64,000 nt of DNA, taken from contig NZ_KQ758604.1 of NCBI RefSeq assembly GCF_001457025.1, forward strand, positions 62,001-126,000, read 5' to 3'. Made by a program: the position numbers and the translations under genes. Under the pieces are notes generated by a model, which saw only the letters and a list, made by a program, of their open reading frames with translations, was not told where the DNA came from and searched no databases. Below are positions 34,296-53,451 of this stretch, piece after piece (position 1 is the first letter of the stretch; each line of letters opens with the position of its first letter). Source of the stretch: Pseudarthrobacter enclensis. Its GTDB lineage: Bacteria; Actinomycetota; Actinomycetes; Actinomycetales; Micrococcaceae.

Positions 34296-36608
34296 TTACA
34301 GCCGGGTGTCGAAGGAATCGCAGAACACGTTCTCGTTGAACGTGCCCTGGAATTCAGACTTGCCCTGGATCTTCGCCACGGCAGCCCGGATGGCCTCGCG
34401 TGAGCCGGCGTGCGCGTGGATGGCGGTCTTCACCATCGGCACGTCAATCAGGTGGTTCGGCTGGTTCAAGGAGACGAAGACGGTCGGTACTTCCGTGGCG
34501 TACCAGGGGATCTCTGCGGCCATCGGTGAGGACCACTTGATCCTGATGGCTGCCTCCTGCGCGAAGCCCTTGACGTTGGCGAACACGAACGCGGCGTCAT
34601 ACCGGTCCGCGTAGTCCGCGGTGGCCTCTTCAGCCAGGACGGACATGAAGTTCACTCCTGTCTCCCCCGCGGCCTCGCGCTGCTCGGCTGTCCGGAACAC
34701 AGACACCTCGAAGCCCGCGGCAACAAGCTCTTCCTTCACCGTGTCCAGGTAGGCCAGCGGATCAGCCCGGGTGAAGTCCGCCCCGCCGGAGATGCCGTAG
34801 AGCCGGATCCGCGGATGCGTTTCGGGCGTGATGGGCAGGTTCCCGGCGGTGTCCTTGACCAGGGTGACGGTCTTGTCCGCCACCTCTGCGGCAATGGCAC
34901 GGTGTGCTTCGGAACCAATGACGGACAGCGCATCGGCCGGCGGGACAAGCTCGTCCAGGGACTTCCGGTGCAGCCCCAGCGACGCCTTCAGCCCGAGGAT
35001 CCTCCGCAGGGCGTCATGCAGCCGCTGCTCGGTAATGACGCCCGACTTGTAGCCGTCCAGCATGAACTGGAAGTCCTCGGCCGGATTGCGGCAGAACAGG
35101 AACATGTCACAGCCGGCCGCAATGGTTGCCGGCACCAGGTCCTTGCGCTTCTGCGCCTGCGTGAGTCCCACCATCAGGGAAGCATCGGTGAGCACCAGGC
35201 CGTTGAAGCCCAACTCGCCGCGCAGCAGGTCCTGGAGAAGTTCCGGCGCCAGCGTCGCAGGCAGAATGTCGGCGTCGGACAGGCCCGGACGGAAGTGCCG
35301 GGACACCTCCGGTGCACCGATGTGGCCCACCATGATGGACTGCACGCCGTGCCCGATCATTTCGCGGTACACATGCCCGTACGTCCGGTCCCACTCCTCG
35401 TAGGAGAACGTGTTGTAGGACGTGACCACGTGCTGGTCGCGCTCGTCAACGCCGTCACCCGGGAAGTGCTTCATGGCGCAGACGGTGGGCGACTCGCTGA
35501 TGCCGTCAAAGTACTCCTTGGCGCGCTCCACCACGATCTCCGGGGTGTTGCCGAACGAGCGGGTGGAGATCACCGTGTTACGCCAGTTGTAGTGGATGTC
35601 CACGATCGGCGCGAACGCCCAGTTGCACCCCAGGGCCGCAGTCTCGACGCCGGCCACCTGCCCCATCTGCCGCGCAATGTTCTTGTCCGGGTGGGAGCCG
35701 GCCTGCAGGTGCGTGGAGACAAACGTGCCGTCGTCGCAGCTGCCCGCCCCGCCCATTTCCGGGTTGGAGGCGATCAGCAGCGGGACGCGGGACTTCGACT
35801 GTGCGTACCGGATGTGCTCCTGCACCGCGGCGGACGGACCAGGCCGGTAGCGCATGCCGCCCACGTGGTAGTTCTCCAGCACGTCGTCGAGGTATTCGGG
35901 CGAGTAGCCGTTGTTGTGGTTGATGAACAGCTGCCCGATCTTTTCCTTGAGCGTCATGGCGCTGATGGTTTCTTCCACCCAGGTCACCGCGCCGTCGTCG
36001 AGATTGTACGGAGCGGCGGAAAGGTCGACGTCGAACTGCCGCGGGCGGGTGCCCGCGGCACCTTCGGCCGAGGGTACGACGGCGGCAATATTGGCCAGTG
36101 CCGACGCCACCACTTCGTCCACGGGCGCGGCGATGTCGACGACGAACCCGGCTTCGTCGGCTTCGAGCGGTTCCAGCGTGGCGAGTTGGGAGTCCAGCAG
36201 GGCGGGCGGCATGAAGTGCCCGGTCCGCCCTTCGGTGCGGGCCTTGAGGACGTCCTTGGTTCCGTGCAGGTGCAGGAAGACGGTGTCCGGCGCCTGCGCC
36301 CGGATGGCGTCGCGGTAGCTGCGGCGAAGGGCCGAGCAGGCCAGGACCAGTCCCCCGTTTCCGGCGTTGGCCAGCTCGGAACCGACGGTGGCGAGCCAGG
36401 GCCAGCGGTCCTCGTCCGTCAGCGGGGTCCCGGCCGCCATCTTGGCGACGTTCTCCACCGGGTGGAGGGAGTCGCCGTCGACGAACGGGACGCCCAGTTC
36501 GCGGGCCACGAGGTCACCGATGGTGGTCTTTCCGCAACCGGAAACGCCCATGACAACGATGCGGTGCTTGGTCATTGCTGCTGCCTTACCTGTGGTGCCT
36601 GCGCTCAC
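34296..36608 (-). CDS. Fusion protein: gluconokinase (GntK type) plus GH3 glycosidase
   Basis: 770 residues in one open frame. Residues ~12-180 are a complete thermoresistant-type gluconokinase (P-loop [13 protein letters not shown], substrate region DGDSLHP, lid with [15 protein letters not shown]). From about residue 192 ([17 protein letters not shown]) a glycoside hydrolase family 3 domain begins: [15 protein letters not shown] near the acid/base loop (Asp where NagZ-type enzymes have His), nucleophile Asp probably in [11 protein letters not shown], and the C-terminal GH3 domain to the end. GH3 members of this sort release N-acetylhexosamine or glucose. The GTG at 36608 overlaps the manD stop by 4 bp; ATG 36575 is an alternative. 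No signal peptide, so the glycosidase acts on imported substrate. Confidence 0.88.
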
Positions 36609-37834
36609 CAGTCGTGCACCGTGCCGTCCACGAGGCGGTTGTAGGGCAGGTAGGCCTGCTGGTACGGGAAGGCCGCGGCGGCTTCCTCGTTGAACTCCAC
36701 GCCGATGCCGGGTTCGTCGCCGGGGTGCAGGTAGCCGTCCTTGAAGGTCATGGTCTGGTGGAAGACCTCGTTGGTCTTGTCCGAGTGCTGCATGTATTCC
36801 TGGATGCCGTAGTTGTGGATGGCCAGGCCCACGTGCAGCTGGGCGGCGAAGCCCACCGGGGAAATATCGGTGGGGCCGTGGAAGCCGGACTTGATCTGGT
36901 ACTGCGCGGCGAAATCCATGACCTTCTTCAGCGGGGAGATACCGCCGAAGTGGGTGGACGCTGCGCGGACATAATCGATCAGCTGTTCCTTGATGATGGT
37001 CTGGTAGTCGTACACGGTGTTGAAGATTTCCCCGATGGCCAGCGGCGTGGTGGTGTGCTGCCGGACCAGGCGCAGGGCCTCCTGGTTCTCGGCCGGGGTG
37101 CAGTCCTCGAGCCAGAACAGGTCGTAGGGTTCCAGCGCCTTGCCGAGCTTCGCGGCCTGGATGGGCGTCATGCGGTGGTGCCCGTCGTGCAGCAGCGGGA
37201 TTTCCGGGCCGAACTCATTCCGGACGGCCTCGAAGACGGTGGGCAGGTGCCGCAGGTAGGCGCGGGTGTCCCAGTCCTCCTCCACGGGGAACGCGCCGCG
37301 GCCAGCAGGCTCGTAGTCATACCGCTCCCCCGAGGCCTGGGCCTGGGCGGCCACACCGTAGACGGCCTTGATGCCGGGGACGGCGGTCTGGATCCGGATG
37401 GACTTGTACCCGAGTTCCAGGTGCTCCCGCACCGAATCGAACAGCGAGGGGATGTCCGAGCCGGAGGCATGGCCGTAGGCACGCAGCCCGTTGCGGGACG
37501 CTCCGCCCAGCAGCTGGTACACCGGCATCCCGGCCAGCTTGCCCTTGATATCCCACAAAGCCATGTCGACGGCGGCGATGGCCGCCATGGTCACGGGGCC
37601 GCGGCGCCAGTAGGAGGAGCGGTACAGGAACTGCCAGGTGTCCTCGATCCGGTGCGGGTCCTTGCCGATCAGCAGCTGGGCGACATGTTCCTTCAGGTAG
37701 GCGGCGACGGCGAGTTCACGGCCGTTGAGGGTGGCATCGCCGATGCCGGTCACACCGTCCTCGGTGGTAATCCGGAGCGTCACGAAGTTCCGGGAGGGAC
37801 TGGTCACGAAGACGTCGGCGGCAATGATTTTCAC
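36605..37834 (-). CDS. manD: D-mannonate dehydratase, ManD family
   Basis: 409-residue enolase-superfamily enzyme dehydrating D-mannonate to 2-keto-3-deoxy-D-gluconate. The capping domain begins [20 protein letters not shown]. The metal ligands appear in order as [16 protein letters not shown] and LAIGEIFN, and the [12 protein letters not shown] and [11 protein letters not shown] segments complete the barrel. Length is typical of the ManD/RspA clade. GTG start with AAAGGA upstream. It completes the glucuronate route with uxaC and uxuB, and shares a transcript with the symporter and gluconokinase-GH3 genes. Confidence 0.93.
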
Positions 37835-37936: not shown

Positions 37937-39349
37937 TCAGTTGGCGGCAGCAGGCCTGACTGCCAGTGGTTCACCGGCTCCGTCCTGCGCTGCGCCGGCA
38001 GCGGCTGCGGCAGCTTCGCCTTCAGCACGGCGGGCGCGGATATCGGCAAGGATCCGGGCGTGCAGGGCGTCGGTGAGGTTGTACTTGGTCATGACCAGGA
38101 GAGCCAGGAGTGCAAGGGCGGCCGGGATCGCGCCGGCGGCAACCTGGATGCCAAAGACGGCGTCGGCCGTCTGGGCTGCCCCTGACTTGTAGCCGCCCAG
38201 GGCCAGGGCGTAGGCGGCCAGTGCGCCACCCACGGCCTGGCCGGTCTTGCGGGTGAAGGAGAAGAGCGCGTAGGTGATGCCCTCGGTGCGGACACCGGTT
38301 TTCCATTCGCCGTATTCGACGGTGTCGGCCTCGAGTGCCCAGACGACGATGCTGACGGCCATGACACCCACCAGGCTGATGAGCAGGCCACCGAAGCCGA
38401 TCCACGTCTGGCTGGCCGGGGTGAGGAAGACGATGACGCCGCCCACCACCGTGACCACCGAGGCGTAGACGTAGACGTTTTTCTTCCCGACTGCCCTGAC
38501 GAGGCGCGGCATGATGGCTGCCAGCACGAAGGTCAGCACCAGCTGGATGACGGACAGCACCGGGTACAGGTCCAGCCGGCCCAGCACGTCCCGGAGGTAG
38601 TAGAGCTGGACCGAGGTCAGGGCCAGGTATCCGGAGAGGAAGAGAAAGGAGCTCAGGCACAGCATCATCAGCGGTTTGTTGCCCTTGAGGGTGTCGATGC
38701 TCTGCCTAAGGGTGACGTTGGGGACGGCCCGGTGGACCTGCTCCTTGGCGGTGAAAACCGTGAAGAAGTAGAGGGCCGCGCCGATCACCACAAATGCCAG
38801 GGTGATGCCGGTGAACGTGGCCTGCAGGTCCGCGCCCGGCTTGATCAGCGGGGCAACGAAGATACCCAGGGACGAGCCCACCAGGGCCGCTCCGATCATC
38901 CGGGCCGAACCGAGCTTGGCACGCTCTCCGGGATCCTGGGTCATGGCACCGGCAAGGGATCCGTAGGGAATGTTCACCAGGCTGTAGGCCAGGCCCAGCG
39001 CGGCATAGGTGACGTAGGCGTAGAGGAGGGTTCCGGTCTCGCCGATCTGCGGCACCGAGAACGTCGCAACGCTGAGCAGGAGCAGCGGGATGGAACCGAA
39101 CATGATGAACGGGCGGAACTTGCCAAAGCGCTTGCTGAAGGTGCGGTCCACCACCCGTCCGGCCACCACGTCGGCGAATGCGTCAAAGATCCTGACGGCC
39201 AGGAGCAGGGTTCCGGCGGCGGCCGCGGAGATTCCGGCAACATCGGTGTAGTAGACCAGCAGGAACATGGTGGCGGTGGTGAATGCGAGGTTGTTGGCTG
39301 CGTCGCCGGCGCCATAGCCGATGATGCTGAGCCTGTTCAGCTTCTTCAC
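37937..39349 (-). CDS. GPH-family glycoside/uronide:cation symporter
   Basis: 470-residue transporter with twelve membrane helices, of the glycoside-pentoside-hexuronide:cation family (MelB/GusB/UidB relatives). The N-terminus LSIIGYGAGDAANNLAF, the helix 2-3 region RIFDAFADVVAGRVVDRTFSKRFGKFRP and the middle WALEADTVEYGEWKTGVRTEG (helix 10-11 loop) are the family's hallmark segments. GTG 39349 has AAAGGAG 6 bp upstream. It heads the symporter-manD-gntK/GH3 operon and is controlled by a LacI-type operator at 39424-39447. Likely cargo is a uronate or glucuronide. Confidence 0.92.
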   Translation of the reverse strand: MKKLNRLSIIGYGAGDAANNLAFTTATMFLLVYYTDVAGISAAAAGTLLLAVRIFDAFADVVAGRVVDRTFSKRFGKFRPFIMFGSIPLLLLSVATFSVPQIGETGTLLYAYVTYAALGLAYSLVNIPYGSLAGAMTQDPGERAKLGSARMIGAALVGSSLGIFVAPLIKPGADLQATFTGITLAFVVIGAALYFFTVFTAKEQVHRAVPNVTLRQSIDTLKGNKPLMMLCLSSFLFLSGYLALTSVQLYYLRDVLGRLDLYPVLSVIQLVLTFVLAAIMPRLVRAVGKKNVYVYASVVTVVGGVIVFLTPASQTWIGFGGLLISLVGVMAVSIVVWALEADTVEYGEWKTGVRTEGITYALFSFTRKTGQAVGGALAAYALALGGYKSGAAQTADAVFGIQVAAGAIPAALALLALLVMTKYNLTDALHARILADIRARRAEGEAAAAAAGAAQDGAGEPLAVRPAAAN

Positions 39350-39404
39350 GATGGGCTCCTTTACCCACTGCCGCGAGGCAGCACTTCGATTGAGTCTGGT
39401 TGTA

Positions 39405-39447
39405 ATCCTAGTCACGTGGCAAGAAAATGGCAAGCGGTTGCCATTTT
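39405..39447 (-). promoter_or_regulatory. LacI operator and promoter of the symporter-manD operon
   Basis: Palindrome 39424-39447 with core TGGCAAGCGGTTGCCA (arms AAAATGGCAA and TTGCCATTTT). On the minus strand TTGCCA (39433-39428) serves as -35, then 17 bp, -10 TAGGAT (39410-39405). Repressor binding would cover the -35. Confidence 0.85.
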
Positions 39448-39527
39448 GTTTTGCGCAGCAGGATTTTGCTGTGCGCCCGTGGTGCCGCGAACGCCTGTGT
39501 GCCGGGGCCACGGCCGGCGCCGGACCA

Positions 39528-39565
39528 TAAAAAACTGCCCGGAAGCACAGGGCTCCCGGGCAGTT
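39528..39565 (-). terminator. Terminator of the uxaC-uxuB operon
   Basis: Minus-strand stem AACTGCCCGG/CCGGGCAGTT (39533-39542, 39556-39565) followed by TTTTTT, 28 bp after the uxuB stop. Confidence 0.92.
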
Positions 39566-39593
39566 GGTGCACCGGTTGGGGCGCAGACCCGTT

Positions 39594-41072
39594 CTACGCC
39601 TGCGCCTCCTGGCGGACAAATCCTGCGGCGAGCGTTGCCACAAGCTCCACAGTCCCGCCGTCCTGCGAAAGCGGTTCGTTCAACAGCGCAACCAGGGCCC
39701 GCACACGGTCCGGTCCGGGAAGCGCGCACGCGGCGGCTATGTCACCGGCGAGCGGGTCCTGGATGGCCTGGCCCTCCTGTGTAGCCGCCCCGCAGAAGGC
39801 GACCCACGCCGCGATCATGCCGGCTGCCCCCTCCCCGGTCCGCCCGGCTTCCCGCTCTGCCGCCAGGACGGGGACCGCACGCATCCGCAGCTTGGTGCTG
39901 CCATCCATGGCGATCTGCGTGAGGTGGTGGGCAATCCGGGCGTTGCGGAAGCGTGCCAGGAGCTGCACCCGGTAGGCCGGGATCTGCAGGTCCGCGCCGT
40001 CTGCAGCAGCACCCGAGAGGTTGGCTTCGGCCTCGTCCCAGAAACGCTCGACGGCGGCAAGGCACGCCGGGTCCGCCAGCGCCTCGGCAACCGTCGTGTG
40101 ACCGCGCAGTTGCCCCAAGTAGGCCAGCAGCGAATGGGCGCCGTTCAGCAGCCACAGCTTGCGGTTCTCGTAGGGTTCAATGTCGTCGACGAAGACGGCG
40201 CCGGCGTCCTCCCAGCGCGGCCGCCCCGCAGGGAAGTCCCCACTCAGGACCCAGTTACGGAACGGTTCGGCCACCACCGGGGAGTTGTCCCGGTAGCCGC
40301 ACGCAGCCGTCACAGCCTCGACATCAGCATCGGTGGTCCGCGGGGTGATGCGGTCCACGGAGGTGCTGACGAAGCTGACGTTCGCGTCGATCCACGCGGC
40401 GAGCCGCGGGTCCCAGGCTTCGGCCATGCCCACCACGGCGTTGCGTGCCACGGTGCCATTGTGGGAGAGGTTGTCACAGCAGACGACGGCGAGTGGTCCG
40501 GCGCCCGCGGCCTGGCGGGCAGCCAGGGCATTGACCAGCCGGCCCACCGGAGTGGTGGGCATGCCGTCCGGGCCGGCCTTCAGCTGCTGGAGGTCGTCCG
40601 CAACGCCCGGGTCCTTTGGGTCGAGCCGGCCGTCGGCCCGGAGTCCGTAGGCGGCCTCCGTGATGGTCAACGTCACCACCGCGGTACCGGGGGCCGCAAT
40701 CAGCCCGGCGAGCCGGCCTATATCGGCGCCATCCACGGCTTCGACAATGCTGCCGACCACTTCAAAGGTGTCGCCCTCATCGCCGCGCTCCACCACCGTG
40801 TACAGGCCGTCCTGTCCGGACAGGGATGCGGCGGCGTCGGGCCGGCGGCCGGTGAAGGCCGCGATCCCCCAGTCCGGGGCGTCACCGGCATGCTGGGTGT
40901 ACCAGGCCTGGTGTGAGCGGTGGAAGGCACCCAGCCCCAGGTGCACGATCCGCACCGGCGCCTTCGGCACCGGGCGGACCGTGCGGGACAGTTGGGGAAC
41001 GGAAGGTGAGGCTTTCCCGGGAAGGAGGGCGCCGGCGTCGGACGTTCCGGGAGCAGTCTTTTCCATGGTCAC
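39594..41072 (-). CDS. uxuB: D-mannonate oxidoreductase / fructuronate reductase, mannitol dehydrogenase family
   Basis: 492 residues of the polyol-specific long-chain dehydrogenase family. The N-terminal Rossmann motif is VRIVHLGLGAFHRSHQAWYT. The C-terminal domain holds the catalytic Lys-Asn-His region (ENRKLWLLNGAHSLLAYLG). Pairing with uxaC (GTGA overlap) and manD in the next operon supports fructuronate reduction to D-mannonate rather than mannitol oxidation. The GTG start at 41072 is fixed by the overlap with the uxaC stop. Confidence 0.9.
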   Translation of the reverse strand: MTMEKTAPGTSDAGALLPGKASPSVPQLSRTVRPVPKAPVRIVHLGLGAFHRSHQAWYTQHAGDAPDWGIAAFTGRRPDAAASLSGQDGLYTVVERGDEGDTFEVVGSIVEAVDGADIGRLAGLIAAPGTAVVTLTITEAAYGLRADGRLDPKDPGVADDLQQLKAGPDGMPTTPVGRLVNALAARQAAGAGPLAVVCCDNLSHNGTVARNAVVGMAEAWDPRLAAWIDANVSFVSTSVDRITPRTTDADVEAVTAACGYRDNSPVVAEPFRNWVLSGDFPAGRPRWEDAGAVFVDDIEPYENRKLWLLNGAHSLLAYLGQLRGHTTVAEALADPACLAAVERFWDEAEANLSGAAADGADLQIPAYRVQLLARFRNARIAHHLTQIAMDGSTKLRMRAVPVLAAEREAGRTGEGAAGMIAAWVAFCGAATQEGQAIQDPLAGDIAAACALPGPDRVRALVALLNEPLSQDGGTVELVATLAAGFVRQEAQA

Positions 41073-42493
41073 AGCTTGAAGACCCTTCGCGGGGAGGCAT
41101 CCACGATGTCAAGGATCAGCTCGTGCGCGCGGTCCTCGCTGACCCGGTGCTCGGCGACCAGGCGGGCCAGGAAAGAGGCCTCGATCCGGCGGGAGGCATC
41201 ATGCCGGGCGGGGATGGAGCAGAAGGCACGGGTGTCGTCGATGAAGCCGGACGAGCGGGAGAACCCTGCGGTCTCGGTGACGGCGGAGCGGAAGCGGAGC
41301 ATCGCGTCCGGTGCATCCAGGAACCACCAGGGGGCGCCCAGGAAGACGGAGGGGTAGAACCCGGCCAGCGGCGCGAGTTCGCGGGAGAAGACCGTCTCAT
41401 CCATGGTGAAAAGGACCAGGTGGAAGTCCTTGGCCGTGCCGAAGTCCTCCAGCAGCGGACGGACGGCTTCGGTGTAGTCGATGGCGAACGGGATGTCATG
41501 GCCGCTGTCCGCGCCGTAGGTGTTGAAGGTGGGTTCGTGGTGGTTGCGGAAGGACCCGGGATGGATGGTCATCACCAGGCCGTCCTCGACGGACATCCGG
41601 GCCATCTGGTACATCATGTGCGCCTCGAAGTCCTCGCGGTCCTGGGCAGTGGCCTTGCCGGACCGGGCTGCGTCGAAGAGGCGGGACGCTTCGGCGTCCG
41701 TGAGCTTGAGGGTGCGCGGCGTGCGGACACCGTGGTCCGCCGAGACGGCGCCGTTGTCCACGAAGTAGCGGCGGCGGTTTTCAAGGGCGGTGATGTACCC
41801 CGCGTAGCCGGTGCCGCCGTCCCCCGCCGCGGTGATCAGGCGGTCCACGTTGTCCCGCCACTGCGGGTGGGCGATGTTCAGGTACTGGTCCGGACGGAAC
41901 GTGGGCAGGACGCGGCCGTGGAAGGACGGGTCCGCGGCGATGGCCTGGTGGCTGGACAGGCTGTCCAGCGGATCATCGGTGGTGGCCAGCACCTCGATGT
42001 TGAAGTCCTTGAAGAGCTCGCGCGGTCGGAAGCCGGGTTCCTGCAGGCGGGCGGAGATGGCGTCGTAGCTGGCATCGGGGTTCCCGGCGTCCGGCTCTTC
42101 CTGCAGGCCGAAAACGCTCTGGAACTGGGTGCGCAGCCAATATCCGGAGGCGGTGCCCTCGAACAGGGGCCAGGCCTTGCAGAACTCCCGCCAAACAGTC
42201 CGCGCGTCCGGCACGGCCCGGGGATCACCGTGAGCGCCGGTCTGGGGTCGCAGCAGGTCGTGGTCCACGCCGCTGGCATGAATCAGGCGGGTGACGTAAT
42301 GGTCCGGGCTGACCAGCAGCGCTGCCGGGTCCGGAAAGGGAGTGTTGTGCTCGATGACAGCGGCGTCAACGTGGCCGTGGGGCGAAATGATGGGCAGGTC
42401 CTGGACGCGGGCCAGCAGGTCGCGGGCGATGCTCCGCGTTCCGGGGTCAGCGGGCAGAAGCCGGTCGGGGTGGGAAGCAATCGACTGTGACAT
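41069..42493 (-). CDS. uxaC: Glucuronate (uronate) isomerase
   Basis: 474-residue amidohydrolase-superfamily enzyme converting D-glucuronate to D-fructuronate (and D-galacturonate to tagaturonate). Metal and active-site segments: ISPHGHVDAA, NIEVLATTDDPLDSL, VMTIHPGSFRNHH and FSRSSGFIDDTRAFCSIPARHD. Length and order are as in characterised UxaC. It has no ribosome site but a GATCAT box 6 nt upstream, with a -35 TTGACA inside a LacI operator. First gene of the uxaC-uxuB operon. Confidence 0.96.
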   Translation of the reverse strand: MSQSIASHPDRLLPADPGTRSIARDLLARVQDLPIISPHGHVDAAVIEHNTPFPDPAALLVSPDHYVTRLIHASGVDHDLLRPQTGAHGDPRAVPDARTVWREFCKAWPLFEGTASGYWLRTQFQSVFGLQEEPDAGNPDASYDAISARLQEPGFRPRELFKDFNIEVLATTDDPLDSLSSHQAIAADPSFHGRVLPTFRPDQYLNIAHPQWRDNVDRLITAAGDGGTGYAGYITALENRRRYFVDNGAVSADHGVRTPRTLKLTDAEASRLFDAARSGKATAQDREDFEAHMMYQMARMSVEDGLVMTIHPGSFRNHHEPTFNTYGADSGHDIPFAIDYTEAVRPLLEDFGTAKDFHLVLFTMDETVFSRELAPLAGFYPSVFLGAPWWFLDAPDAMLRFRSAVTETAGFSRSSGFIDDTRAFCSIPARHDASRRIEASFLARLVAEHRVSEDRAHELILDIVDASPRRVFKL

Positions 42494-42581: not shown

Positions 42582-43640
42582 TCAGCTGGCCAGGAGCCTT
42601 CCGCTGGAGCCGCGCAGGACCAGTTCGGTCTCTACCTGCAGGGCGGGTACTGCTTCCCCTCCGCCGTGCAGCAGGTCCAGGAGCAGCGTGGCAGCCTCCG
42701 TGCCGCAGTCGGTCATGGGCGACCGGATAGTGGTCAGCGCCGGGGTGGTGAAGTCCGCACCGAAGATGTCGTCGAAGCCCACGATGCTGATCTGGTCCGG
42801 GACCTGCATGCCGGCGGCCTGGAGCTCCTGCATCAGGCCGATGGCCAGGAGGTCGTTGTACGTCATTACTGCCGTGGCACCGCTGGCGACGACGTCGCGC
42901 GCAACCTGCCGGCCGCCGTCGACCGTTGGCTTGGTGGACGGGAGCTGAACGCACTCCAGGTGGGACCACTCGCACGCCGCCTTCACGCCCTCCCAACGGC
43001 GCGCGGTCATCCAGGACTGTGGCGGCCCGGCGACGTAGGCAATCTTCCGGTGGCCGTTGGCGGCCAGGTTCCGGACGGCCTCACCGATGCCCTTATTGAC
43101 GTCCGGCACCACAGACGGCACTCCCTCGACCTGGCGGTTGATCACCACTACCGGCTTTTCCCTGGCCAGTTCGAGGATCCTGGTGTCCTCCATCCGCGGG
43201 CTGGCAAGGATGATCCCGTCCACGGTGGCCAGCATGCGCCGCGCGGCCGTCAGTTCGGTATCCGGGGATTCCGCGGACTCGGCCAGCATCATGGTGTAGT
43301 CGCGCGCCGTGGCAGTGGCTTCAGCGCCGCGGATGATGCCGAAGAACGTGGGGTTGGTGATGTCCGCGACGATGAGCGCCAGCGTGTTGGTCCTGCCCGT
43401 GGGAAGTGCGCGGGCAAAGGGGTTGACCCGGTACTCCAGCTGGGCTGCGGCGTCCTCGATCAACTTCTGCGTCTTGGCGCTGACCCGGCCGGGCTTGCTG
43501 AGCGCCCGGGAAACCGTGGACGGATTCACGCCGGCAAGCTTGGCGATGTCGTAGATGGTGGGGCTCGATTTTCCGCCCCGGGCCGGCTTGGGCGCGTCGG
43601 CGGGCGGCTCGGAAAGGTCCTGCGTCCTGGGTTCGCTCAC
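42582..43640 (-). CDS. LacI family repressor of the uronate/glycoside region (first)
   Basis: 352 residues. DNA-binding headpiece TIYDIAKLAGVNPSTVSRAL with hinge helix NPFARALPTGRT; periplasmic-binding-like effector domain from about residue 85 (TLALIVADITNPTFFGIIRG) ending in the QVETELVLRGSS dimer region. Start GTG 43640: TAGGAT lies 6 nt upstream, indicating a leaderless message. It sits between the uxaC operator and the ABC operon terminator and is a likely binder of the shared TTGGCAACCGGTTGCCAA-type sites. Effector unknown; a uronate intermediate is plausible. Confidence 0.93.
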   Translation of the reverse strand: MSEPRTQDLSEPPADAPKPARGGKSSPTIYDIAKLAGVNPSTVSRALSKPGRVSAKTQKLIEDAAAQLEYRVNPFARALPTGRTNTLALIVADITNPTFFGIIRGAEATATARDYTMMLAESAESPDTELTAARRMLATVDGIILASPRMEDTRILELAREKPVVVINRQVEGVPSVVPDVNKGIGEAVRNLAANGHRKIAYVAGPPQSWMTARRWEGVKAACEWSHLECVQLPSTKPTVDGGRQVARDVVASGATAVMTYNDLLAIGLMQELQAAGMQVPDQISIVGFDDIFGADFTTPALTTIRSPMTDCGTEAATLLLDLLHGGGEAVPALQVETELVLRGSSGRLLAS

Positions 43641-43713: not shown

Positions 43714-43724
43714 AAACATGCGCG

Positions 43725-44891
43725 TCAGCTCCGCTCTGGGAACTGGCCTTCGGCGGCGATCCGTTTATTGAGCTCGGACAGGAACTCGTCCTCGTCAAAG
43801 TCCAGGCCCACCTCGGTTCCGGTCCAGCTGGAGAGGTGGATGGCGTTGGCCAGCCGGACGCCGTTGATCCCGTCCGAACCCGGCGCCAGCAGCGGGGTGC
43901 CGTCAAGGATGTTCGCGGCGAAGTTCTCCAGGACGCCGGCGTGCTGGCCGCCCCAGGCCGATTCGAACTCGATGACCTCGGTGGTGTAGTACTCCTCGGG
44001 CTTGAGCTGGCCCATGAAGAGCTTGCGGACATCCTCCATGTCCATGCCGTCGCTCAGCTCACGCTCCGGCTTGGCCAGGCGGGTCACCGTGGCGGTCTTG
44101 GAACCTTCGACGACGATCTTGCCCTGGTCGCCCAGGATCTCGAAGCGGTCGGTTCCGGTGAGGTCGTGCGTGGCCGTGACGAACACGCCCGTGGCGCCGT
44201 CGCCGTAGTCCACCACGGCGGTGACTTCATCCTCGACGGCGATGTTTCGGCGGAAGCCGTACGCCACCTTGGCGTACACGGACTTGGGGATGCCGCAGAT
44301 CCACTGCCACAGGTCCAGCTGGTGCGGAGCCTGGTTGACCAGGACGCCGCCGCCCTCGCCGCCCCACGTGGCGCGCCAGGCGCTGGAGTTGTAGTACCCC
44401 TGCGGGCGCCACCAGGTGGTGATGATCCAGTTGGTGCGGCGGATGGCTCCGATCTCGCCGTTGTCCACGATCTCCTTGATCCGGCGGTACAGCGGGTTGT
44501 TCCGCTGGTTGAACATGATGGCAAAGGAGAGCTCAGGCTTGGATGCCGCGAACCCGTTCAGTTCCTTGACCTGTTTGGTGTAGACCCCGGCGGGCTTCTC
44601 CACCAGGGCGTGGACGTTCCGCTGGAGCGCGGCGATGCCCATCTCCGGGTGCAGGTAGTGCGGCACGCAGGTGACAACGGCGTCGACGTCGCCGCTTTCC
44701 AGCAGGGCGACGTAGTCGTCATGGAAGGGGACGTCCGGGTACGTGGACGCTGCGAGTTCCTTCTTGGCCGGGTCAGTGTCGCAGATGGCACCGATCTCCA
44801 TGTTGGGGACCAGGCCGTCGGTGATGAACTTGGCGTAGGCGCCGCCCTGTTGGCCCAGGCCGATGATGCCGAGGCGTACTTTCTTGCTCAT
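43725..44891 (-). CDS. Gfo/Idh/MocA family NAD(P)-dependent sugar oxidoreductase (first)
   Basis: 388 residues. Rossmann start RLGIIGLGQQGGAYAKFI, then AVVTCVPHYLHPEMGIAAL and the catalytic EKPAG (Lys). The C-terminal alpha/beta domain has GGGVLVNQAPHQLDLWQWICG, with the conserved active-site His. Members oxidise or isomerise sugars at C1, C2 or C3. It is translated after a TIM-barrel isomerase gene with a 23-bp gap. A strong AGGAG lies before ATG 44891. Together they may oxidise and cleave an imported glycoside; the exact reaction is unproven. Confidence 0.9.
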   Translation of the reverse strand: MSKKVRLGIIGLGQQGGAYAKFITDGLVPNMEIGAICDTDPAKKELAASTYPDVPFHDDYVALLESGDVDAVVTCVPHYLHPEMGIAALQRNVHALVEKPAGVYTKQVKELNGFAASKPELSFAIMFNQRNNPLYRRIKEIVDNGEIGAIRRTNWIITTWWRPQGYYNSSAWRATWGGEGGGVLVNQAPHQLDLWQWICGIPKSVYAKVAYGFRRNIAVEDEVTAVVDYGDGATGVFVTATHDLTGTDRFEILGDQGKIVVEGSKTATVTRLAKPERELSDGMDMEDVRKLFMGQLKPEEYYTTEVIEFESAWGGQHAGVLENFAANILDGTPLLAPGSDGINGVRLANAIHLSSWTGTEVGLDFDEDEFLSELNKRIAAEGQFPERS

Positions 44892-44914
44892 GTGGGTTCT
44901 CCTGTGTTGAAAAT

Positions 44915-45775
44915 CTAAAAAAGGCCGCTGTGGCCCATGGCCACCAGGTTGTCGTGGGAGGTCTGGAGCGCGTCCCAGACGGTGCGGCCGTACAGTTCGT
45001 CCTGCTCCACCAGGAGGTACTGCGCACCGGCCTGGACCGCCGCGGGCACGATCGACGGGAAGTCGAGGTTGCCCTCCCCCACTTCGGCGAACTGGACAAC
45101 GTTCTTGAACTCGGCCATGAAGCCGGGGAAGTCTCCGGTTTCGAGCATGCCGAAGGCTTCCGCGGGCATGCTTCCGATCCGGTAGTCCTTCAGGTGCACC
45201 ATGGCCGTCTTTCCGGCGTACTTCTCGAGGGTCCGGACGGGATCAAGGCCGCCGCGCTGGACCCAGTGGACGTCGATCTCCATGCCCATTGCCGGGGAGT
45301 TCTCCGCGATGATGTCCAGCATGTACTTGCCGTCGAACTTCGCAAACTCCACGTGGTGGTTGTGGTAGTAGAGGCTGATGCCGTGCTCCTGGAGGCGTTC
45401 GGCGTAGCCGTTGGCTTGCTTGGCGAACTCCACCACGGCATCCAGTGACTTCATGGCCGGAAACGGCAGCATCCCGATGCGCAGGAGGTTGCTGTCCAGC
45501 CGCTTGGCGTCGTCAACGATCTTGTCGAAGTTGTCCGCCAGGGACTCCACGGGCATGCCTTTGCGGCCCTCGACGTTGACGGACAGCGCTGCGATGTCCA
45601 TGCCCAGCTCGGAGCGGGCACGGTCCAGTTCCGTCACGTTCTCCGGCGTCATGGGGATCTGGGAGATCTCCACCGCGTTGTAGCCGATCGCGCTGACTTT
45701 CCGCAGGGTTTCGAATGCTCCGATGTCGGCGAAGCTCTCCTTGAGCATCATCGCCTGTACGCCAATTGTGGCCAC
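44915..45775 (-). CDS. Sugar phosphate isomerase/epimerase-like TIM barrel protein (first)
   Basis: 286 residues of the AP-endonuclease-2/xylose-isomerase-like TIM barrel family. Metal-site residues are suggested by ISLYYHNHHVEF, GMEIDVHWVQRGG, MVHLKDYRIG and YLLVEQDELYG. It contains no signal peptide. It follows the ABC ATPase gene by 63 bp and precedes a Gfo/Idh gene. Family members include IolE, IolI and the C-glycoside deglycosidase subunits; which one applies here cannot be told from sequence alone. Confidence 0.88.
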   Translation of the reverse strand: MATIGVQAMMLKESFADIGAFETLRKVSAIGYNAVEISQIPMTPENVTELDRARSELGMDIAALSVNVEGRKGMPVESLADNFDKIVDDAKRLDSNLLRIGMLPFPAMKSLDAVVEFAKQANGYAERLQEHGISLYYHNHHVEFAKFDGKYMLDIIAENSPAMGMEIDVHWVQRGGLDPVRTLEKYAGKTAMVHLKDYRIGSMPAEAFGMLETGDFPGFMAEFKNVVQFAEVGEGNLDFPSIVPAAVQAGAQYLLVEQDELYGRTVWDALQTSHDNLVAMGHSGLF

Positions 45776-45838: not shown

Positions 45839-46720
45839 TCAGGCTGCCGCTCCCGCCTGTTCGGTCTGTTGGCGCTGCTGCTCCAGGAGCCGGTGCCGGT
45901 CGGCGCGGCGTTGTTCCTGCCGGTCCGGGTCCGGAACCGGGGAAGCCAGGAGCAGGCGCTGCGTGTAGGGGTGTTCAGGGTCCCGGGTGACGGTCCCGGC
46001 CAGCCCCTGCTCCACGATTTCGCCGCGGAACATGACGGCCACGCGGTGGCTGATGTGCCGGACAACGTCCAGGTCGTGGGAGACGAACAGGTAGGAGACG
46101 CCGGTGTCCCGCTGGATCTGCAGGAACAGGTCCAGCACCCGGGCCTGGGTGGAAAGGTCCAGCGCGCTGACGGGTTCGTCGCAGACAATCAGCTTGGGAG
46201 ACAAGGCCAGGGCGCGGGCGATGGCCACACGCTGCCGCTGCCCGCCGCTGAATTCGCGCGGCAGCCGGTGGATGGCATCCGACGGCAGGCCAACCTGGTC
46301 CAGCAGCTCCTTGACGCGCTTCCGGGCGGCATCCTTCTGGAGGCCCTGGACGCCCAGGGGTTCAGCGAGGATGTCGCCGATCTCCAGGGCCGGGTTCAGC
46401 GACGTGTAGGGGTCCTGGAAGACCACCTGCAGGTCCCGGCTCAGCGTCCGGCGTTCCCTGCGGGAGGCGTTGCTGATGTCATTGCCTTCGAAGATGACCT
46501 TTCCCCGGGTGACCGGCGCCAGGCCCAGGACCGCGCGGCCCAGGGTGGTTTTGCCGGAACCGGACTCGCCCACCAGGCCCAGGGTTTCGCCCTGGCCGAT
46601 AGTGATGTTGATGTCCGTCAGCGCGCGGAACGGTTTGGCCCGGAACTTCTTGCTGGGGTACTCCACCACCAGGTCCTCGACGCTCAGCAGTGGTGCGTCC
46701 TGCCGTGAAACTGTGCTCAT
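45839..46720 (-). CDS. Peptide/oligosaccharide-type ABC importer ATPase (DppF/OppF class)
   Basis: 293 residues. Walker A GESGSGKTTLG, Q-loop VVFQDPYTSLNP, signature FSGGQRQRVAIARAL, Walker B LIVCDEPVSALD and H-loop VSHDLDV. The C-terminal HPYTQRLLLASP extension is characteristic of OppD/OppF/DppF ATPases. The start overlaps the fused permease-ATPase gene by 4 bp. With that protein it provides the two ATPase halves. The C-terminus is rich in Arg, Gln and Ala. Confidence 0.95.
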   Translation of the reverse strand: MSTVSRQDAPLLSVEDLVVEYPSKKFRAKPFRALTDINITIGQGETLGLVGESGSGKTTLGRAVLGLAPVTRGKVIFEGNDISNASRRERRTLSRDLQVVFQDPYTSLNPALEIGDILAEPLGVQGLQKDAARKRVKELLDQVGLPSDAIHRLPREFSGGQRQRVAIARALALSPKLIVCDEPVSALDLSTQARVLDLFLQIQRDTGVSYLFVSHDLDVVRHISHRVAVMFRGEIVEQGLAGTVTRDPEHPYTQRLLLASPVPDPDRQEQRRADRHRLLEQQRQQTEQAGAAA

Positions 46721-48627
46721 GCCACCGGCTCCTTTTCTGCGCTTGCGTGACGGGATGCTTCACCGTGTGCCACGGGTCCTTCGGGCGGGGACACCAGCAT
46801 GGTCATGGGCGTCTTGCCTTCGAGCATGGACCCCAGGAGGGTCCGGGTGTAGTTCTCTTTCGGGTTGCGGAGGATCTCGCGGACGGTGCCTTCCTCCACG
46901 AGCCGGCCGTTCTGCATCACGGCCACGCGGTCGCAGAGGTCGGCCACCACGCCGAAGTTGTGGGTCACCAGGATGACTCCGATATTCAGCCGCTGCTGCA
47001 GCTCGCGCAGCAGGTCCAGGACATCCGCCTGCACGGTGACGTCCAGGGCGGTGGTGGGCTCATCCGCGATGACCAGGTCCGGTTCGCAGCTGATGGCGCC
47101 GGCGATCAGCACGCGCTGGGCCATGCCGCCGGAGACCTCGTGCGGGTAGGCGTTGAAGGTGCGTTCCGGGTTCACGATGCCGACGTCGGTCAGCAGCTTC
47201 AGCGCCCGGGTCCGGGCTTCCGCCTTGCTGATCCCCAGCACCCTGACCATGGGAGTGACCAGCTGGTATCCGATGGTGAATGCCGGGTCCAGGTTGCTCA
47301 TGGGTTCCTGCGGGATGTAGGAGATGCGCTTGCCGCGCAGCTTGGACAGCCGTTCCTGGCTGACCCGGTCCTCCCCCGGCGCCACCGTGTAGTTGCCGTC
47401 GAACTGGATGGAGCCTGCAACGATCCGTGCATTGTCCGGGAGCAGGCCCAGGATGGAGAACGCGGTCTGGGACTTGCCCGAGCCCGACTCCCCCACGATG
47501 CCCAGAATCTCGCCGCGGTCCACGTGGAAGGAGACGTTGTCCACCACCTTTTTGATGGAACCGTCTGCCTGGGGGTAGCCGACGCCGAGGTTGGTCACCT
47601 TGACCAGGTGGTGCTCGGTCCCGTGTTCGACGGCGGCAACGGACTTCCGTGACGGGCGCGCCTTGGCGGGTGCCGCCGTCGTGCTCCCTCCGCTGGGGCC
47701 GGAAGCGGGCCCGCGCTTCCTGCGGTGCTTGATCTTTTCGCCGTCTTCCAGGGCATCGCGGATGGCGTTGCCCAGGAGCACCAGCCCGCCGATGGTGAGG
47801 GCCATGGCCAGGGCCGGCCACAGGAGCAGGCTTGGCGTCAGGTAGACGTTCTTGAAGCCTTCGGAGAGCATGACGCCCCAGGTTGCCTTGGTGGGATCAC
47901 CGAGGCCCAGGAACTCCAGGCCGGATTGGATGGCGATGGCCACGCCGGCGATGGCGGCGGTCTGGATGATGATCGGCGCACGGACCACGGAGAAGATGTG
48001 GCGGGCCACGATGCTCAGGTCCGAGAGGCCGGAGACGCGGGCTGCGTCCACGTAGAGCTCATTGCGGACCGACTGGACCGCGGCCCGGGTGAGCCTGAAG
48101 TAGGACGGGCTGATGAGGATGCCGAAAGCGATCATCGAAAACCACACGGACGGGCCGAAGGCCGCGCGGATGGTGAGCAGCACGATCAGGCCGGGCAGGC
48201 TCATGAGGATGCTGACCACCCAGTTGGAGACGGCCTCGAACCTGCCGGCGTAGTATCCGGCGATCAGTCCTGCGGGGAGGCCGATGGCGATGGCAACCCC
48301 GGCGCAGAGCAGGGCGGAGAGCAGCGTCAGCTGGGCTCCGAAGAGCAGGCGGCTCCAGGTGTCCCGTCCGGCGCTGTCCGTTCCCAGGATGTTGGTGGAG
48401 TCCGGGGCCGCCAGGGTCTTGGAGATGTTGGCGAAGTTTTCCTCGAAGGGGGCCAGCACCGGTGCCAGGATCGCCAGCAGGGCGATGGTGGTGAGGATGA
48501 CCAGCGAGGCAATGCCGAGCGGGTTCTTCAGGAGCCGGCGCATCACGGTGGAGCGGACCACGGTGCCGCTTTGCCCCGTGGGGAGGGCCGACGGCGCAAC
48601 TGCTGCTGTTTCTACGGAATCGCTCAT
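46717..48627 (-). CDS. Fused ABC permease (DppC) and ATPase (DppD)
   Basis: 636 residues. Residues 1 to about 295 are a DppC-type permease (helix after RLLKNPLGIASLVILTTIAL, DSAGRDTWSRLLFGAQLTLL, EAA-loop DAARVSGLSDLSIVARHIF). A linker of about 50 residues, rich in Ser, Ala and Lys, leads to an ATPase: Walker A GESGSGKSQ, signature VSGGMAQRVLIAGAI, Walker B LVIADEPTTALD, and oligopeptide-type C-terminal NYTRTLLGSML. The single-chain arrangement fixes permease:ATPase stoichiometry. It overlaps its neighbours by 4 bp on both sides, as in a tightly coupled operon. Confidence 0.93.
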   Translation of the reverse strand: MSDSVETAAVAPSALPTGQSGTVVRSTVMRRLLKNPLGIASLVILTTIALLAILAPVLAPFEENFANISKTLAAPDSTNILGTDSAGRDTWSRLLFGAQLTLLSALLCAGVAIAIGLPAGLIAGYYAGRFEAVSNWVVSILMSLPGLIVLLTIRAAFGPSVWFSMIAFGILISPSYFRLTRAAVQSVRNELYVDAARVSGLSDLSIVARHIFSVVRAPIIIQTAAIAGVAIAIQSGLEFLGLGDPTKATWGVMLSEGFKNVYLTPSLLLWPALAMALTIGGLVLLGNAIRDALEDGEKIKHRRKRGPASGPSGGSTTAAPAKARPSRKSVAAVEHGTEHHLVKVTNLGVGYPQADGSIKKVVDNVSFHVDRGEILGIVGESGSGKSQTAFSILGLLPDNARIVAGSIQFDGNYTVAPGEDRVSQERLSKLRGKRISYIPQEPMSNLDPAFTIGYQLVTPMVRVLGISKAEARTRALKLLTDVGIVNPERTFNAYPHEVSGGMAQRVLIAGAISCEPDLVIADEPTTALDVTVQADVLDLLRELQQRLNIGVILVTHNFGVVADLCDRVAVMQNGRLVEEGTVREILRNPKENYTRTLLGSMLEGKTPMTMLVSPPEGPVAHGEASRHASAEKEPVA

Positions 48628-49565
48628 GACACACGTACTTTCGGGTTGAGCCAGCCATTGAGGATGTCCACCAGGAGGTTCACCACGATGACCACCACCA
48701 CGGTGTACATGACCACGCCCATGACGACGGGGAGGTCGGTCTGCCCTGTTGCCGCGACCGCCAGCGGGCCCATGCCGGGAAGGGCGAAAATTTGTTCGAT
48801 GATCACCACGCCGCCCAGCATGCCGATCAACTGGAGGCTCAGCACCGTGAGGCCCGCCGGTGCCGCGCTGCGGAGGACGTGCTTGAACAGGATCTCCCGC
48901 TCCCCGATTCCGCGGCTGCGGAGGGTCCGGACGTAGTCCCGTTCGAGCTGTTTGATGACGGCGCTGCGGATCTGCTGGGCGCCGCCGGTCACGCCGTTGA
49001 TGAGCAGGGCGATGACGGGGAGGGTCATGGACACGACCCAGGCTTCGGGCCCGACCTCCGGGGAGATGGTGCTCGTTGCCGGGAACATGCCAAGCTGGAT
49101 GGCCAGGATGGTCACCAGGAACACGCCGATCACGTACCCCGGGATGGAGTCGCCGATGATCGCGCCGATCTGGACCACCCTGTCCACCCAGCCGCGCCTC
49201 ACGGCTGCGGCAACACCAATCAGTGCTGCGCAGATGGCGATCAGGATCATTGCGGCGAAAACCATGGTCATGGTGACCGGGATCCGGGTGGCCAGGGAGT
49301 TGGCCACCGGTTCATTGGTGAACCACGAGGCCCCAAGGTTTCCGCTCAGGGCATCGCCCAGCCAGGAGAAGTAACGGGTGAACAGCGGCTGGTCGAGCCC
49401 GAGTTCATGTTCCTTCGCGGCGACCTGCTCAGGGGTGGCCTGGTCGCCGAGGATGTTTTGGGCAATGCTGCCGCTGGCCGTGTACAGCAGGGTGAAGGTG
49501 AGCACGGAGACAACGAACAGCACCACCACCCCGCTGCCCAGCCTCTTCGCAATGAACTTGATCAT
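48624..49565 (-). CDS. ABC transporter permease (DppB class)
   Basis: 313 residues and six membrane helices. The N-terminus (MIKFIAKRLGSGVVVLFVVS) and the conserved DQPLFTRYFSWLGDALSGNLGASW region are typical of DppB/OppB. The cytoplasmic coupling loop is RDYVRTLRSRGIGEREILFKH. It starts 6 bp after the substrate-binding protein gene and overlaps the fused permease-ATPase gene by 4 bp. Forms the pore with the DppC half. Confidence 0.95.
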   Translation of the reverse strand: MIKFIAKRLGSGVVVLFVVSVLTFTLLYTASGSIAQNILGDQATPEQVAAKEHELGLDQPLFTRYFSWLGDALSGNLGASWFTNEPVANSLATRIPVTMTMVFAAMILIAICAALIGVAAAVRRGWVDRVVQIGAIIGDSIPGYVIGVFLVTILAIQLGMFPATSTISPEVGPEAWVVSMTLPVIALLINGVTGGAQQIRSAVIKQLERDYVRTLRSRGIGEREILFKHVLRSAAPAGLTVLSLQLIGMLGGVVIIEQIFALPGMGPLAVAATGQTDLPVVMGVVMYTVVVVIVVNLLVDILNGWLNPKVRVS

Positions 49566-49571
49566 GGGGTC

Positions 49572-51357: not shown

Positions 51358-52365
51358 TCAGGCCACCCGGCCGGCGTGGTCGGGGTAGGCCTGGGCGTAG
51401 AGGTCCTTAACCACCTGCAGCGACTTCGCGGCCTCCGCCGCATCGATCCAGAAGGACCCAGGCTCATGCAGCGTGGCGTAGAAATCCTTGATGAGGAGCT
51501 CATGGGACGCTCCCCAGTAGGAGCGCCCGCCGGTGTCCAGGACACGTTCGGGTACCACCTCCACCGTCCCGTCCGAGTAGGTGACCGTGAGGTCGCCGCG
51601 CAGGCTCAGGGAAGCATTCTCAGTGGTGATATCCAGCGTCACCGGGGCATTGACGGGATTGGCCAGGGTGGCATAAAAGACGCTGCGGGTACCGTTGTCG
51701 TGCTCCGCCGCAAACTCGGCGGTGTCCTCCACTTCGATGACGGCCGCCAGGGCCCGCGTCGAGGCGCTGCCTTCCACTTTCGCCACCGGACCTACCAGCC
51801 ACTGCAGCAGGTCAACGGTGTGGATGGCCTGGTTCATCATCAGGCCGCCGCCGCCTTTGGCCCACGTGCCGCGCCATGGCCGGTCCCGGTAGTAGTCGGC
51901 AGTGCGGTGCCACATCACGGTGGCGGAGGCGCCGAGCACCCGACCCAGCGTGCCGCCGTCGAGCAGTTCACGCATGGCCTGCGACGTGGCGTTGTAGCGG
52001 TTCTGGAAGCAGACTGCGATCCGGGCGGAGCTTTGCTCCGCCGCGGCGGCCACCCGCCGCCCCTCCTCGAGCGTGTGGGCCAGCGGTTTCTCGACGATCA
52101 CGTTGATCCCGCGCTCAAGGCAGTCGATGGCCATTGCGGCGTGCAGGTGGTGCGGCGTGCAGATGTGGACGACGTCGGGGCGGGCCGTGGCCAGCATGTC
52201 GAGGTGGTCCGCGTAGCCGGGGACGCCGTGGGCAGCTTCCGCCGCGGCCAGCCGCCCGGGATCGGCGTCGCACACTGCCACGAGCGTGGCATCAGGCATG
52301 CCGGCCAGGGCCGCGAAGTGGACACTGGACACATCGCCGCACCCGATGATTGCCGCTGTGGTCAT
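51358..52365 (-). CDS. Gfo/Idh/MocA family sugar oxidoreductase (second)
   Basis: 335 residues. Rossmann start TTAAIIGCGDVSSVHFAAL, VVHICTPHHLHAAMAIDCL, catalytic EKPLAHTLEEG, and GGGGLMMNQAIHTVDLLQWL with the active-site His. AAGGAGCAGG precedes the ATG. It is the second gene of a two-gene operon after a TIM-barrel isomerase, mirroring the first pair at 43725-45775. Likely oxidises a glycoside or free sugar ring with NAD(P); substrate not known. Confidence 0.9.
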   Translation of the reverse strand: MTTAAIIGCGDVSSVHFAALAGMPDATLVAVCDADPGRLAAAEAAHGVPGYADHLDMLATARPDVVHICTPHHLHAAMAIDCLERGINVIVEKPLAHTLEEGRRVAAAAEQSSARIAVCFQNRYNATSQAMRELLDGGTLGRVLGASATVMWHRTADYYRDRPWRGTWAKGGGGLMMNQAIHTVDLLQWLVGPVAKVEGSASTRALAAVIEVEDTAEFAAEHDNGTRSVFYATLANPVNAPVTLDITTENASLSLRGDLTVTYSDGTVEVVPERVLDTGGRSYWGASHELLIKDFYATLHEPGSFWIDAAEAAKSLQVVKDLYAQAYPDHAGRVA

Positions 52366-52403
52366 GATCCTGCTCCTTCGAAGGATGTAATGGAACGGCC
52401 GGC

Positions 52404-53246: not shown

Positions 53247-53323
53247 GGTTTCTCCTTGGTGCTGGCATGCGGGGCCCTCGTTGGCCGGAGGCATGCCGTG
53301 GCTGCTATCACATCTCCCTCGCA

Positions 53324-53385: not shown

Positions 53386-53451
53386 AGGGCTTTCAGCGCC
53401 GTGTCTCCGGTCACAACCGCGCTTCCGCCAGTCCGTTCAGAGAGGAACGCC

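Follow-up and report, generated by a model that had tools for sequence, protein, structure and literature searches.

The question raised by the gntK::GH3 fusion gene of Pseudarthrobacter enclensis, which lies in a 64,000-nucleotide stretch of contig NZ_KQ758604.1 (hereafter the window), is why a kinase of the gluconokinase (GntK) type and an enzyme of glycoside hydrolase family 3 (GH3) should be joined in one protein, and what that protein does. The reading that we favour, with moderate confidence, is that of a bifunctional enzyme of beta-glucuronide catabolism, conserved and functional-looking, the two halves of which would act at opposite ends of the pathway encoded by the operon. The anatomy of both halves, their conservation and the composition of the operon are read directly from the DNA and are described first.

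A kinase-GH3 fusion conserved in Micrococcaceae

The fusion frame is open over 770 codons, with no internal stop in its translation. Its GTG start overlaps the stop codon of the preceding manD gene (GTGA). The ATG of residue 12 has AGGTAAGG ahead of it and is, judging from the sequence, no less likely to be the true start, which would leave 759 residues. As claimed in a first-pass annotation made from the sequence alone, a complete GntK-type kinase with the P-loop GVSGCGKTT is followed in the same frame by a complete GH3 enzyme, and the short linker that the annotation had placed at about residues 180-192 is found in nearly the same position (Table 1). The kinase part exceeds the cut-off of TIGR01313 (gluconokinase, GntK/IdnK type; 183.4 bits on residues 17-173, cut-off 113.75) and the GH3 part that of PF00933 (191.7 bits on residues 219-539, cut-off 27). 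The alignment of the GH3 part to the solved chain 5vqd (386.9 bits) spans residues 194-770, so that the C-terminal domain of the GH3 enzyme is also present. A structure search with the predicted model of the fusion protein (mean predicted local distance difference test score, pLDDT, 79.7) returned GH3 enzymes as its top matches, led by 5vqe (Z 53.2, root-mean-square deviation 2.3, 547 aligned, 36% identity) and 5vqd (Z 53.1); the kinase part is barely tested by that search.

Within the genus the fusion is the usual state, flanked by each of the partial states. A scan of genome contigs with the GH3 half gave 331 confirmed loci, the best 80 of which were kept, and 50 of these 80 belong to Micrococcaceae (Arthrobacter, Pseudarthrobacter, Paenarthrobacter, Specibacter and one unplaced metagenome-assembled genome). 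At 46 of the 50, kinase and GH3 share one frame with no stop between them, the distance between the two matches taking 23 different values from 6 to 132 nt; an assembly error or a missing stop at the junction is thereby ruled out. Relatives with separate genes, one of the two conditions that the annotation had named together as refuting a fusion (the other being reads with a missing stop or frameshift here), do exist (L068 and L071, where kinase and GH3 are adjacent), but as exceptions in a genus where fusion is usual. The other two Micrococcaceae loci have manD followed by GH3 without a kinase (L069) and a frameshift within the kinase (L070), and in four of the 46 fused loci (L038, L073, L079, L089) the GH3 part contains a stop, or its match is interrupted or shortened. 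In L038 (Pseudarthrobacter phenanthrenivorans SWC37) the stop stands at the codon for GH3 residue 392, the position of an active-site glutamine, and for this reason that copy seems to be either defective or misread. Arthrobacter sp. UNC362MFTsu5.1 has the fusion on two contigs (L045, L046) that agree fully in both the kinase and the GH3 part, possibly a duplication in one strain.

Among same-genus genomes, including that of the window, 24 of 37 give a full-length match, which starts no later than residue 15 and ends at residue 770; in one more (G013) the match falls into two pieces of one 844-codon frame. Three genomes (G002, G008, G010) have no GH3 match, and in these manD is followed directly by a kinase gene on its own. 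At E 1e-60 the GH3 part is found in 97 of 150 genus genomes; a phylum-wide search at this threshold matched one of 396 genomes, the window's own, and the GH3 clade is therefore patchy. No kinase match stands beside GH3 in the 30 non-Micrococcaceae loci (Cryobacterium to Firmicutes), where the GH3 enzyme is accordingly stand-alone. Arthrobacter sp. StoSoilB13 has a further GH3 relative on a plasmid of 1 Mb (L150, NZ_AP024649.1); its match consists of two pieces which, joined, show 88.8% identity.

The kinase half has a history of its own. Among 55 fused kinase domains two lineages about 60% identical are distinguished, A (41 domains, including that of the window) and B (14), and the positions invariant across both include the motifs for nucleotide and substrate. 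In the tree of GH3 sequences (67 rows, omitting L070 and the short L089, with 10 chosen of the 30 non-Micrococcaceae loci as outgroup) lineage B requires four changes, all of them forced by the starred branches and each being a gain or a return; the kinase tree omits kinase matches below 130 residues, L070 among them. Pairs of loci with closely similar GH3 parts carry kinases of different lineage: L067 and L025 (GH3 92.5% identical, kinase 60.8%), L033 and L024 (90.3% and 60.3%), L091 and L039 (91.9% and 60.7%), and L037 and L057 (88.8% and 60.0%). In a mosaic scan of five pairs, which covers three of the four lineage B placements (the fourth, L057, being placed by protein identities only), DNA identity is mostly 83-97% at the manD end, drops to about 44-76% within the kinase and, in every pair, is back at about 87-93% where GH3 begins. 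Because of this drop and recovery, the kinase half appears to have been replaced as a unit, a cassette flanked by manD and GH3, with at least four apparent switches between the two lineages, the GH3 part staying about 90% identical. A second GntK gene away from manD, in a well-supported lineage of its own, is found at L068, L071 and L074.

A glucuronide operon and the GH3 active site

The genes preceding the fusion form an operon for glucuronide use, so that the earlier suggestion of a protein that releases a hexose or hexonate-linked sugar is not supported as it was worded. UxaC, ManD and the GPH transporter each exceed an NCBIfam equivalog cut-off (Table 1); the TTG start of the transporter frame is too early, its family match beginning at residue 99. 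No GH2 beta-glucuronidase over cut-off is found in the genome, the sole weak match being to NF007538 (111.8 bits against 544), and the GH3 half is for this reason the candidate glycosidase for the imported glucuronide.

The GH3 half belongs to the His-Asp dyad type of GH3 (NagZ/BglP). Its motif at residues 380-393 aligns with KHFPGHGDTDVDSH of NagZ/YbbD (3bmx) and with the corresponding motif of BglP (5vqd), the terminal D-x-H of the KHFPG motif being in register with both and reading D391-Q-H393 here; from this alignment the dyad is D391/H393, and it is intact. The annotation had read Asp for the usual His in KHFPGDG correctly, but the altered catalysis that it drew from this is mistaken, the dyad sitting at the end of the motif. 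Conservation was followed through 82 sequences (the window, the 80 loci and L021, from another family of the same order) and 11 further, more distant ones, and D391 and H393 are present in every one of both sets. D475 we take, from family knowledge, to be the nucleophile.

A substrate residue may be found in R253. Among the columns of the alignment, this one alone is conserved in 80 or more of the 82 sequences while differing in each of the five glucose-type relatives compared (BglP and the enzymes of Melissococcus, Enterococcus, L. plantarum and Carnobacterium): arginine occupies it in 81 of 82, and M, M, M, T and M stand there in the five. In the ligand-free model it ends strand 251-253, at two strands' edge from N282, which follows strand 278-281. 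W342-R343-N344 had also been considered as a uronate mark and is present in all 82, but the Carnobacterium enzyme L145, which lies beside pgmB, likewise has WRN, and L142 and L144 have FRN; R253 was therefore preferred to WRN.

Glucuronate genes are also found repeatedly near distant, stand-alone members of the clade. In a survey of gene neighbourhoods outside Micrococcaceae, covering L021 and 30 of the 80 loci, clusters with UxaC and/or UxuA are found at ten of the 31. In Intestinibacter bartlettii (L110) a single strand encodes GPH transporter, UxuA, UxuB (short-chain dehydrogenase, SDR, type), GH3, a HAD-superfamily protein, UxaC, Eda and a PfkB-type kinase, and in Muribacter (L106) there is also a GH2 beta-glucuronidase over cut-off (807.9 bits). 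The HAD protein (PF13419) recurs at 16 of the 31 loci and is the next open reading frame (ORF) to GH3 in 14. The members of this family, of about 280 residues (L110:11858-12697 and 15 other loci), conserve the HAD motifs DSDG, Lys and GDxxGD, and none of the three scanned at E 1e-6 receives an NCBIfam name. At L090 a 1017-residue ORF adjoining the GH3 gene (11806-14859) encodes a GH2 enzyme fused to this HAD domain. The family is a candidate beta-glucuronate-1-phosphate phosphatase. An annotated beta-phosphoglucomutase lies close to GH3 in two of eight annotated plasmid regions (Melissococcus L142, Carnobacterium L145), and both kinds of neighbour fit a beta-sugar 1-phosphate, such as BglP makes, as product. 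On two alphaproteobacterial plasmids (L147, L149) GH3 relatives stand beside sulfatase and formylglycine-generating-enzyme genes, which suggests sulfated substrates for these relatives.

In the reading favoured here, the GH3 half probably acts on beta-glucuronides. The GPH transporter, perhaps with the Opp transporter, would import a beta-glucuronide, which the GH3 half would open by double displacement, D475 forming the glycosyl-enzyme, the H393/D391 dyad serving as acid/base and R253 holding the C6 carboxylate. Phosphate or water would complete the reaction, yielding beta-glucuronate 1-phosphate or glucuronate.

Several observations weigh against this reading, in which the functions of both halves are predictions. 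R253 is found in 5 of the 11 more distant relatives as well and the sixth that is not of glucose type has His, for which reason R253 is not proof of uronate specificity; the catalytic loop 391-395 has a pLDDT below 50 in the model. The UxuB-like protein falls under its family cut-off (NF011611, 293.2 bits against 603). At 21 of the 31 non-Micrococcaceae loci neither UxaC nor UxuA is found in the fetched stretch, some of these stretches being short, and the Cryobacterium/Microterricola loci (L075, L078, L082) have GH3 without a ManD or UxaC match in the fetched flanks. At these three loci relatives of most of the window's Opp, Gfo and isomerase-like genes (42582-53612), those of the second oxidoreductase and the second isomerase-like protein among them, stand beside the stand-alone GH3, hinting at a second route for the same sugar. 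The HAD gene is found at none of the 50 Micrococcaceae loci nor in the window, in a run that did match five of 28 other loci (L110, L088, L021, L140, L090), of which all except L140 are in the set that built the HAD model or grouped with it; a search of the genome at E 0.001, run without a positive control of its own, also gave no match. Phosphorolysis in this organism would thus lack its usual partner.

Use of phosphate by the GH3 half in the cell is given somewhat less than an even chance. That the enzyme is a plain hydrolase, a beta-glucuronidase for which phosphate plays no role and the dyad is inherited, is a tenable minority view: besides the missing HAD gene, the substrate of UxaC is free glucuronate, and a true hydrolytic GH3 beta-glucuronidase, SN243, is described (PMC9730296; 7qea). 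Against such a hydrolase, a review on these enzymes (PMC8950772) presents GH3 members with a His/Asp dyad as phosphorylases, and this dyad is kept in 82 of 82 relatives; the nearest solved relative, moreover, is a phosphorylase.

Table 1. Features of the fusion protein and of neighbouring genes, in window coordinates.
Feature	Position	Strand	Basis
gntK::GH3 fusion gene	34296..36608	(-)	770 aa from GTG 36608 or 759 aa from ATG 36575
GntK-type kinase domain, residues 14-177	36078..36569	(-)	TIGR01313; alignment to 3t61, 4eun, E. coli 1knq
P-loop GVSGCGKTT, residues 21-29	36522..36548	(-)	translation
Linker, about residues 178-192	36033..36077	(-)	pLDDT <50 at 179-192 in model
GH3 enzyme, residues 193-770, BglP-like	34299..36032	(-)	5vqd alignment and structure match
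Motif residues 380-393, with dyad D391/H393 and Q392	35430..35471	(-)	alignment, conservation
D475, predicted nucleophile (TDA motif)	35184..35186	(-)	D in 82/82 and in 11/11 more distant
R253, candidate contact for glucuronate carboxylate	35850..35852	(-)	conservation; model strand end
ManD-type mannonate dehydratase (enolase superfamily)	36605..37834	(-)	NF043051 689.2 bits, cut-off 550
GPH-family glucuronide transporter	37937..39643	(-)	NF007353 653.8 bits, cut-off 528
UxuB-like fructuronate reductase (mannitol dehydrogenase family)	39594..41072	(-)	PF01232, PF08125
UxaC, glucuronate isomerase	41069..42493	(-)	NF002794 558 bits, cut-off 387
LacI-family regulator	42582..43640	(-)	
Gfo/Idh/MocA oxidoreductase (43725-44891) and xylose-isomerase-like TIM barrel (44915-45775)	43725..45775	(-)	
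Opp-type ABC transporter, four genes; solute-binding protein 49572-51104	45839..51104	(-)	
Second Gfo/Idh/MocA oxidoreductase and second xylose-isomerase-like protein	51358..53612	(-)	

Directly downstream of the fusion gene is a tRNA-Ser (anticodon cga; 34026-34115, forward strand), beyond which lies an HNH-endonuclease-like ORF (32146-33966), its HNH match slightly under the Pfam cut-off.

The kinase half, the end of the pathway and the remaining alternatives

By the TIGR01313 cut-off and its intact motifs the kinase half is of the GntK/IdnK type: P-loop, DGD, HP, DxDRxPWL, CSAL, RD, HF, Q and TL are all shared with the family, and the domain falls under both equivalog cut-offs for gluconokinases of the E. 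coli type. Since the kinase keeps its place even without GH3, it is assigned to the uxaC-uxuB-manD pathway, and it probably serves the breakdown of glucuronide. UxaC and the UxuB-like enzyme would convert glucuronate to fructuronate and mannonate, ManD would come next, and the fused kinase would phosphorylate the resulting sugar acid with ATP, late in the pathway.

How that pathway ends we infer from what the genome holds. For the classical route, UxaC and a mannonate dehydratase are present, and a PfkB-family KdgK and a PF01081 Eda are not found. No match to 2-keto-3-deoxy-6-phosphogluconate (KDPG) aldolase (PF01081, TIGR01182) was obtained in the genome, in a search whose controls were positive in 8 of 14 genomes, and no 2-keto-3-deoxygluconate (KDG) kinase was found among the PfkB proteins (nine of ten PF00294 matches scanned, the fragment L120 being omitted; the best score, 120.5 bits, lies well below the cut-off of 400). 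The idea that the whole genus lacks Eda, once entertained as support for an Eda-free pathway, is wrong, 135 of 150 genus genomes having PF01081. Of the 15 without it, including the window's own, ten keep a full-length GH3 and an eleventh a piece, so the operon persists in at least 10 of 15. The genome encodes five proteins of the dihydrodipicolinate synthase (DHDPS) family. Two score above the cut-off for DapA and one above that for the KdgD equivalog; a fourth passes none but the broader cut-off of the KdgD subfamily, and the fifth has no assignment. On the basis of this family a non-phosphorylating KDG aldolase is possible, as is a KDPG aldolase of another family.

These findings bear directly on the proposal that the kinase half is a KDG kinase, with ManD making KDG and the GntK-type domain making KDPG, which would be the classical route served by a kinase from a different family. 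ManD does exceed its equivalog cut-off, matches solved chains of the ManD subgroup over its full length and keeps the loop Arg and Tyr as well as the HDxHH and GE motifs; no scanned PfkB protein reaches the KDG-kinase cut-off, and most genomes of the genus hold the PF01081 aldolase. Against it stand the genomes that keep a full-length GH3 without that aldolase, together with the naming of TIGR01313 kinases for gluconate, and on balance we regard a KDG kinase as unlikely, if still worth weighing. ManD has HGP where 4fi4 has HGA; proline at this position is reportedly linked to low activity, to which no weight is given here. The ManD superfamily also holds C2 epimerases. In a more far-reaching combination, the GH3 half would be the first retaining beta-glucuronide phosphorylase, forming beta-D-glucuronate 1-phosphate, from which the HAD phosphatase of distant relatives would free glucuronate; in the Arthrobacter group, which has no HAD protein, the kinase would instead carry a C2 aldonate (gluconate or mannonate) to 6-phosphogluconate with no need of KDPG aldolase, ManD acting at least in part as a mannonate/gluconate epimerase. 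As a whole, this combination is improbable.

Why the two halves are joined admits of two answers. Under the preferred reading of a bifunctional glucuronide enzyme, the fusion would join the first and the last known step of the operon, holding both in equal amounts and requiring no channelling. Equal dosage, already raised by the first-pass annotation, is a possible purpose, the halves acting at two pathway ends and not on each other's product. The fusion would have arisen from gntK and a GH3 gene adjacent to one another after manD, the kinase cassette having been exchanged several times since. The other answer, that the fusion is neutral, two adjacent genes being read through into one protein that brings no advantage, draws on the loci where separate genes serve (L068, L071), on the three genomes with the kinase alone and on the exchange of the kinase half between lineages. 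A single frame at 46 of 50 loci over 23 different match distances argues otherwise, as does the finding that each inferred kinase exchange again yields a fusion, and neutrality is for us the less plausible answer, an unlikely one without being far-fetched.

With respect to substrate, the GH3 half might be a BglP-like beta-glucoside phosphorylase or beta-glucosidase carried along in a glucuronate operon, the kinase being an ordinary gluconokinase. BglP is indeed the closest characterised relative, about 36% identical over the whole length, beta-phosphoglucomutase lies near two relatives, and the Q of D-Q-H, which in BglP is said to mark specificity for glucosides as opposed to N-acetylglucosamine (GlcNAc), is retained. 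R253 in place of the M or T of glucose-type relatives, the glucuronate genes around distant stand-alone members and the lack of any phosphoglucomutase among the annotated operon proteins nevertheless speak for a glucuronide, and a glucoside enzyme seems rather improbable. Cleavage of sugar-gluconate disaccharides (aldobionates) with direct hand-over of the released gluconate to the kinase, close to the annotation's idea, is the only arrangement that has one half supply the other with its substrate, and it fits the kinase family; but it leaves UxaC, UxuB, ManD and the glucuronide transporter unexplained, sits badly with a kinase found in the same spot without GH3, and is highly improbable.

Comparison with known systems

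If the proposed function is right, glucuronides would join the substrates of the phosphorylase-type GH3 clade, for which the review (PMC8950772) lists only two characterised phosphorylases, for GlcNAc and for glucose, and the HAD partner would make the chemistry testable in one assay. A single protein would also hold the first glycosidase and the last kinase of a pathway, with a kinase cassette apparently exchanged at least four times, a natural experiment on enzyme fusion. The question that is sharpened is how glucuronate breakdown ends in bacteria with UxaC and ManD but without Eda. No report of a GntK-GH3 architecture or of a GH3 glucuronide phosphorylase was found in searches limited to open-access papers.

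Compared with the GntK/IdnK gluconokinases (E. coli 1knq), with which it has its motifs in common, the kinase half differs in standing after manD in a uronate operon and in being fused to GH3. One study (PMC6978723) describes a mannonate kinase and a 6-phosphomannonate 2-epimerase in Lactobacillus suebicus, their genes not identified, and an earlier gntE proposal for a gluconate-type kinase in uronate breakdown in Thermotoga. This route resembles the present one in placing a gluconate-type kinase after UxaC and UxuB, and involves no GH3 or ManD fusion.

For the GH3 half, the nearest characterised enzyme is BglP, a retaining GH3 beta-glucoside phosphorylase from a metagenome (5vqd/5vqe, there called BglX), which shares whole-length homology, the domain layout and the motif at 380-393, but has M for R253 and PE for WR at 342-343, is about 36% identical and, in its solved chain, lacks a kinase domain. 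NagZ/YbbD (3bmx) and the Nag3-type beta-N-acetylglucosaminidases/phosphorylases have the His-Asp dyad in the same place, with D-S-H in 3bmx instead of D-Q-H and a weak similarity to it (138.6 bits). SN243 (7qe1/7qea; PMC9730296) shares the GH3 fold and acts on a beta-glucuronide, the predicted substrate here, but is a distant relative (18% identity, Z 32) and a hydrolase. Phosphorolysis in an acidic-sugar pathway is indicated by the title of work on the 3-O-beta-glucopyranosyl beta-glucuronide phosphorylase of Paenibacillus borealis, an enzyme of GH94 rather than GH3 that would, by that title, split a glucosyl-glucuronide rather than a glucuronosyl bond.

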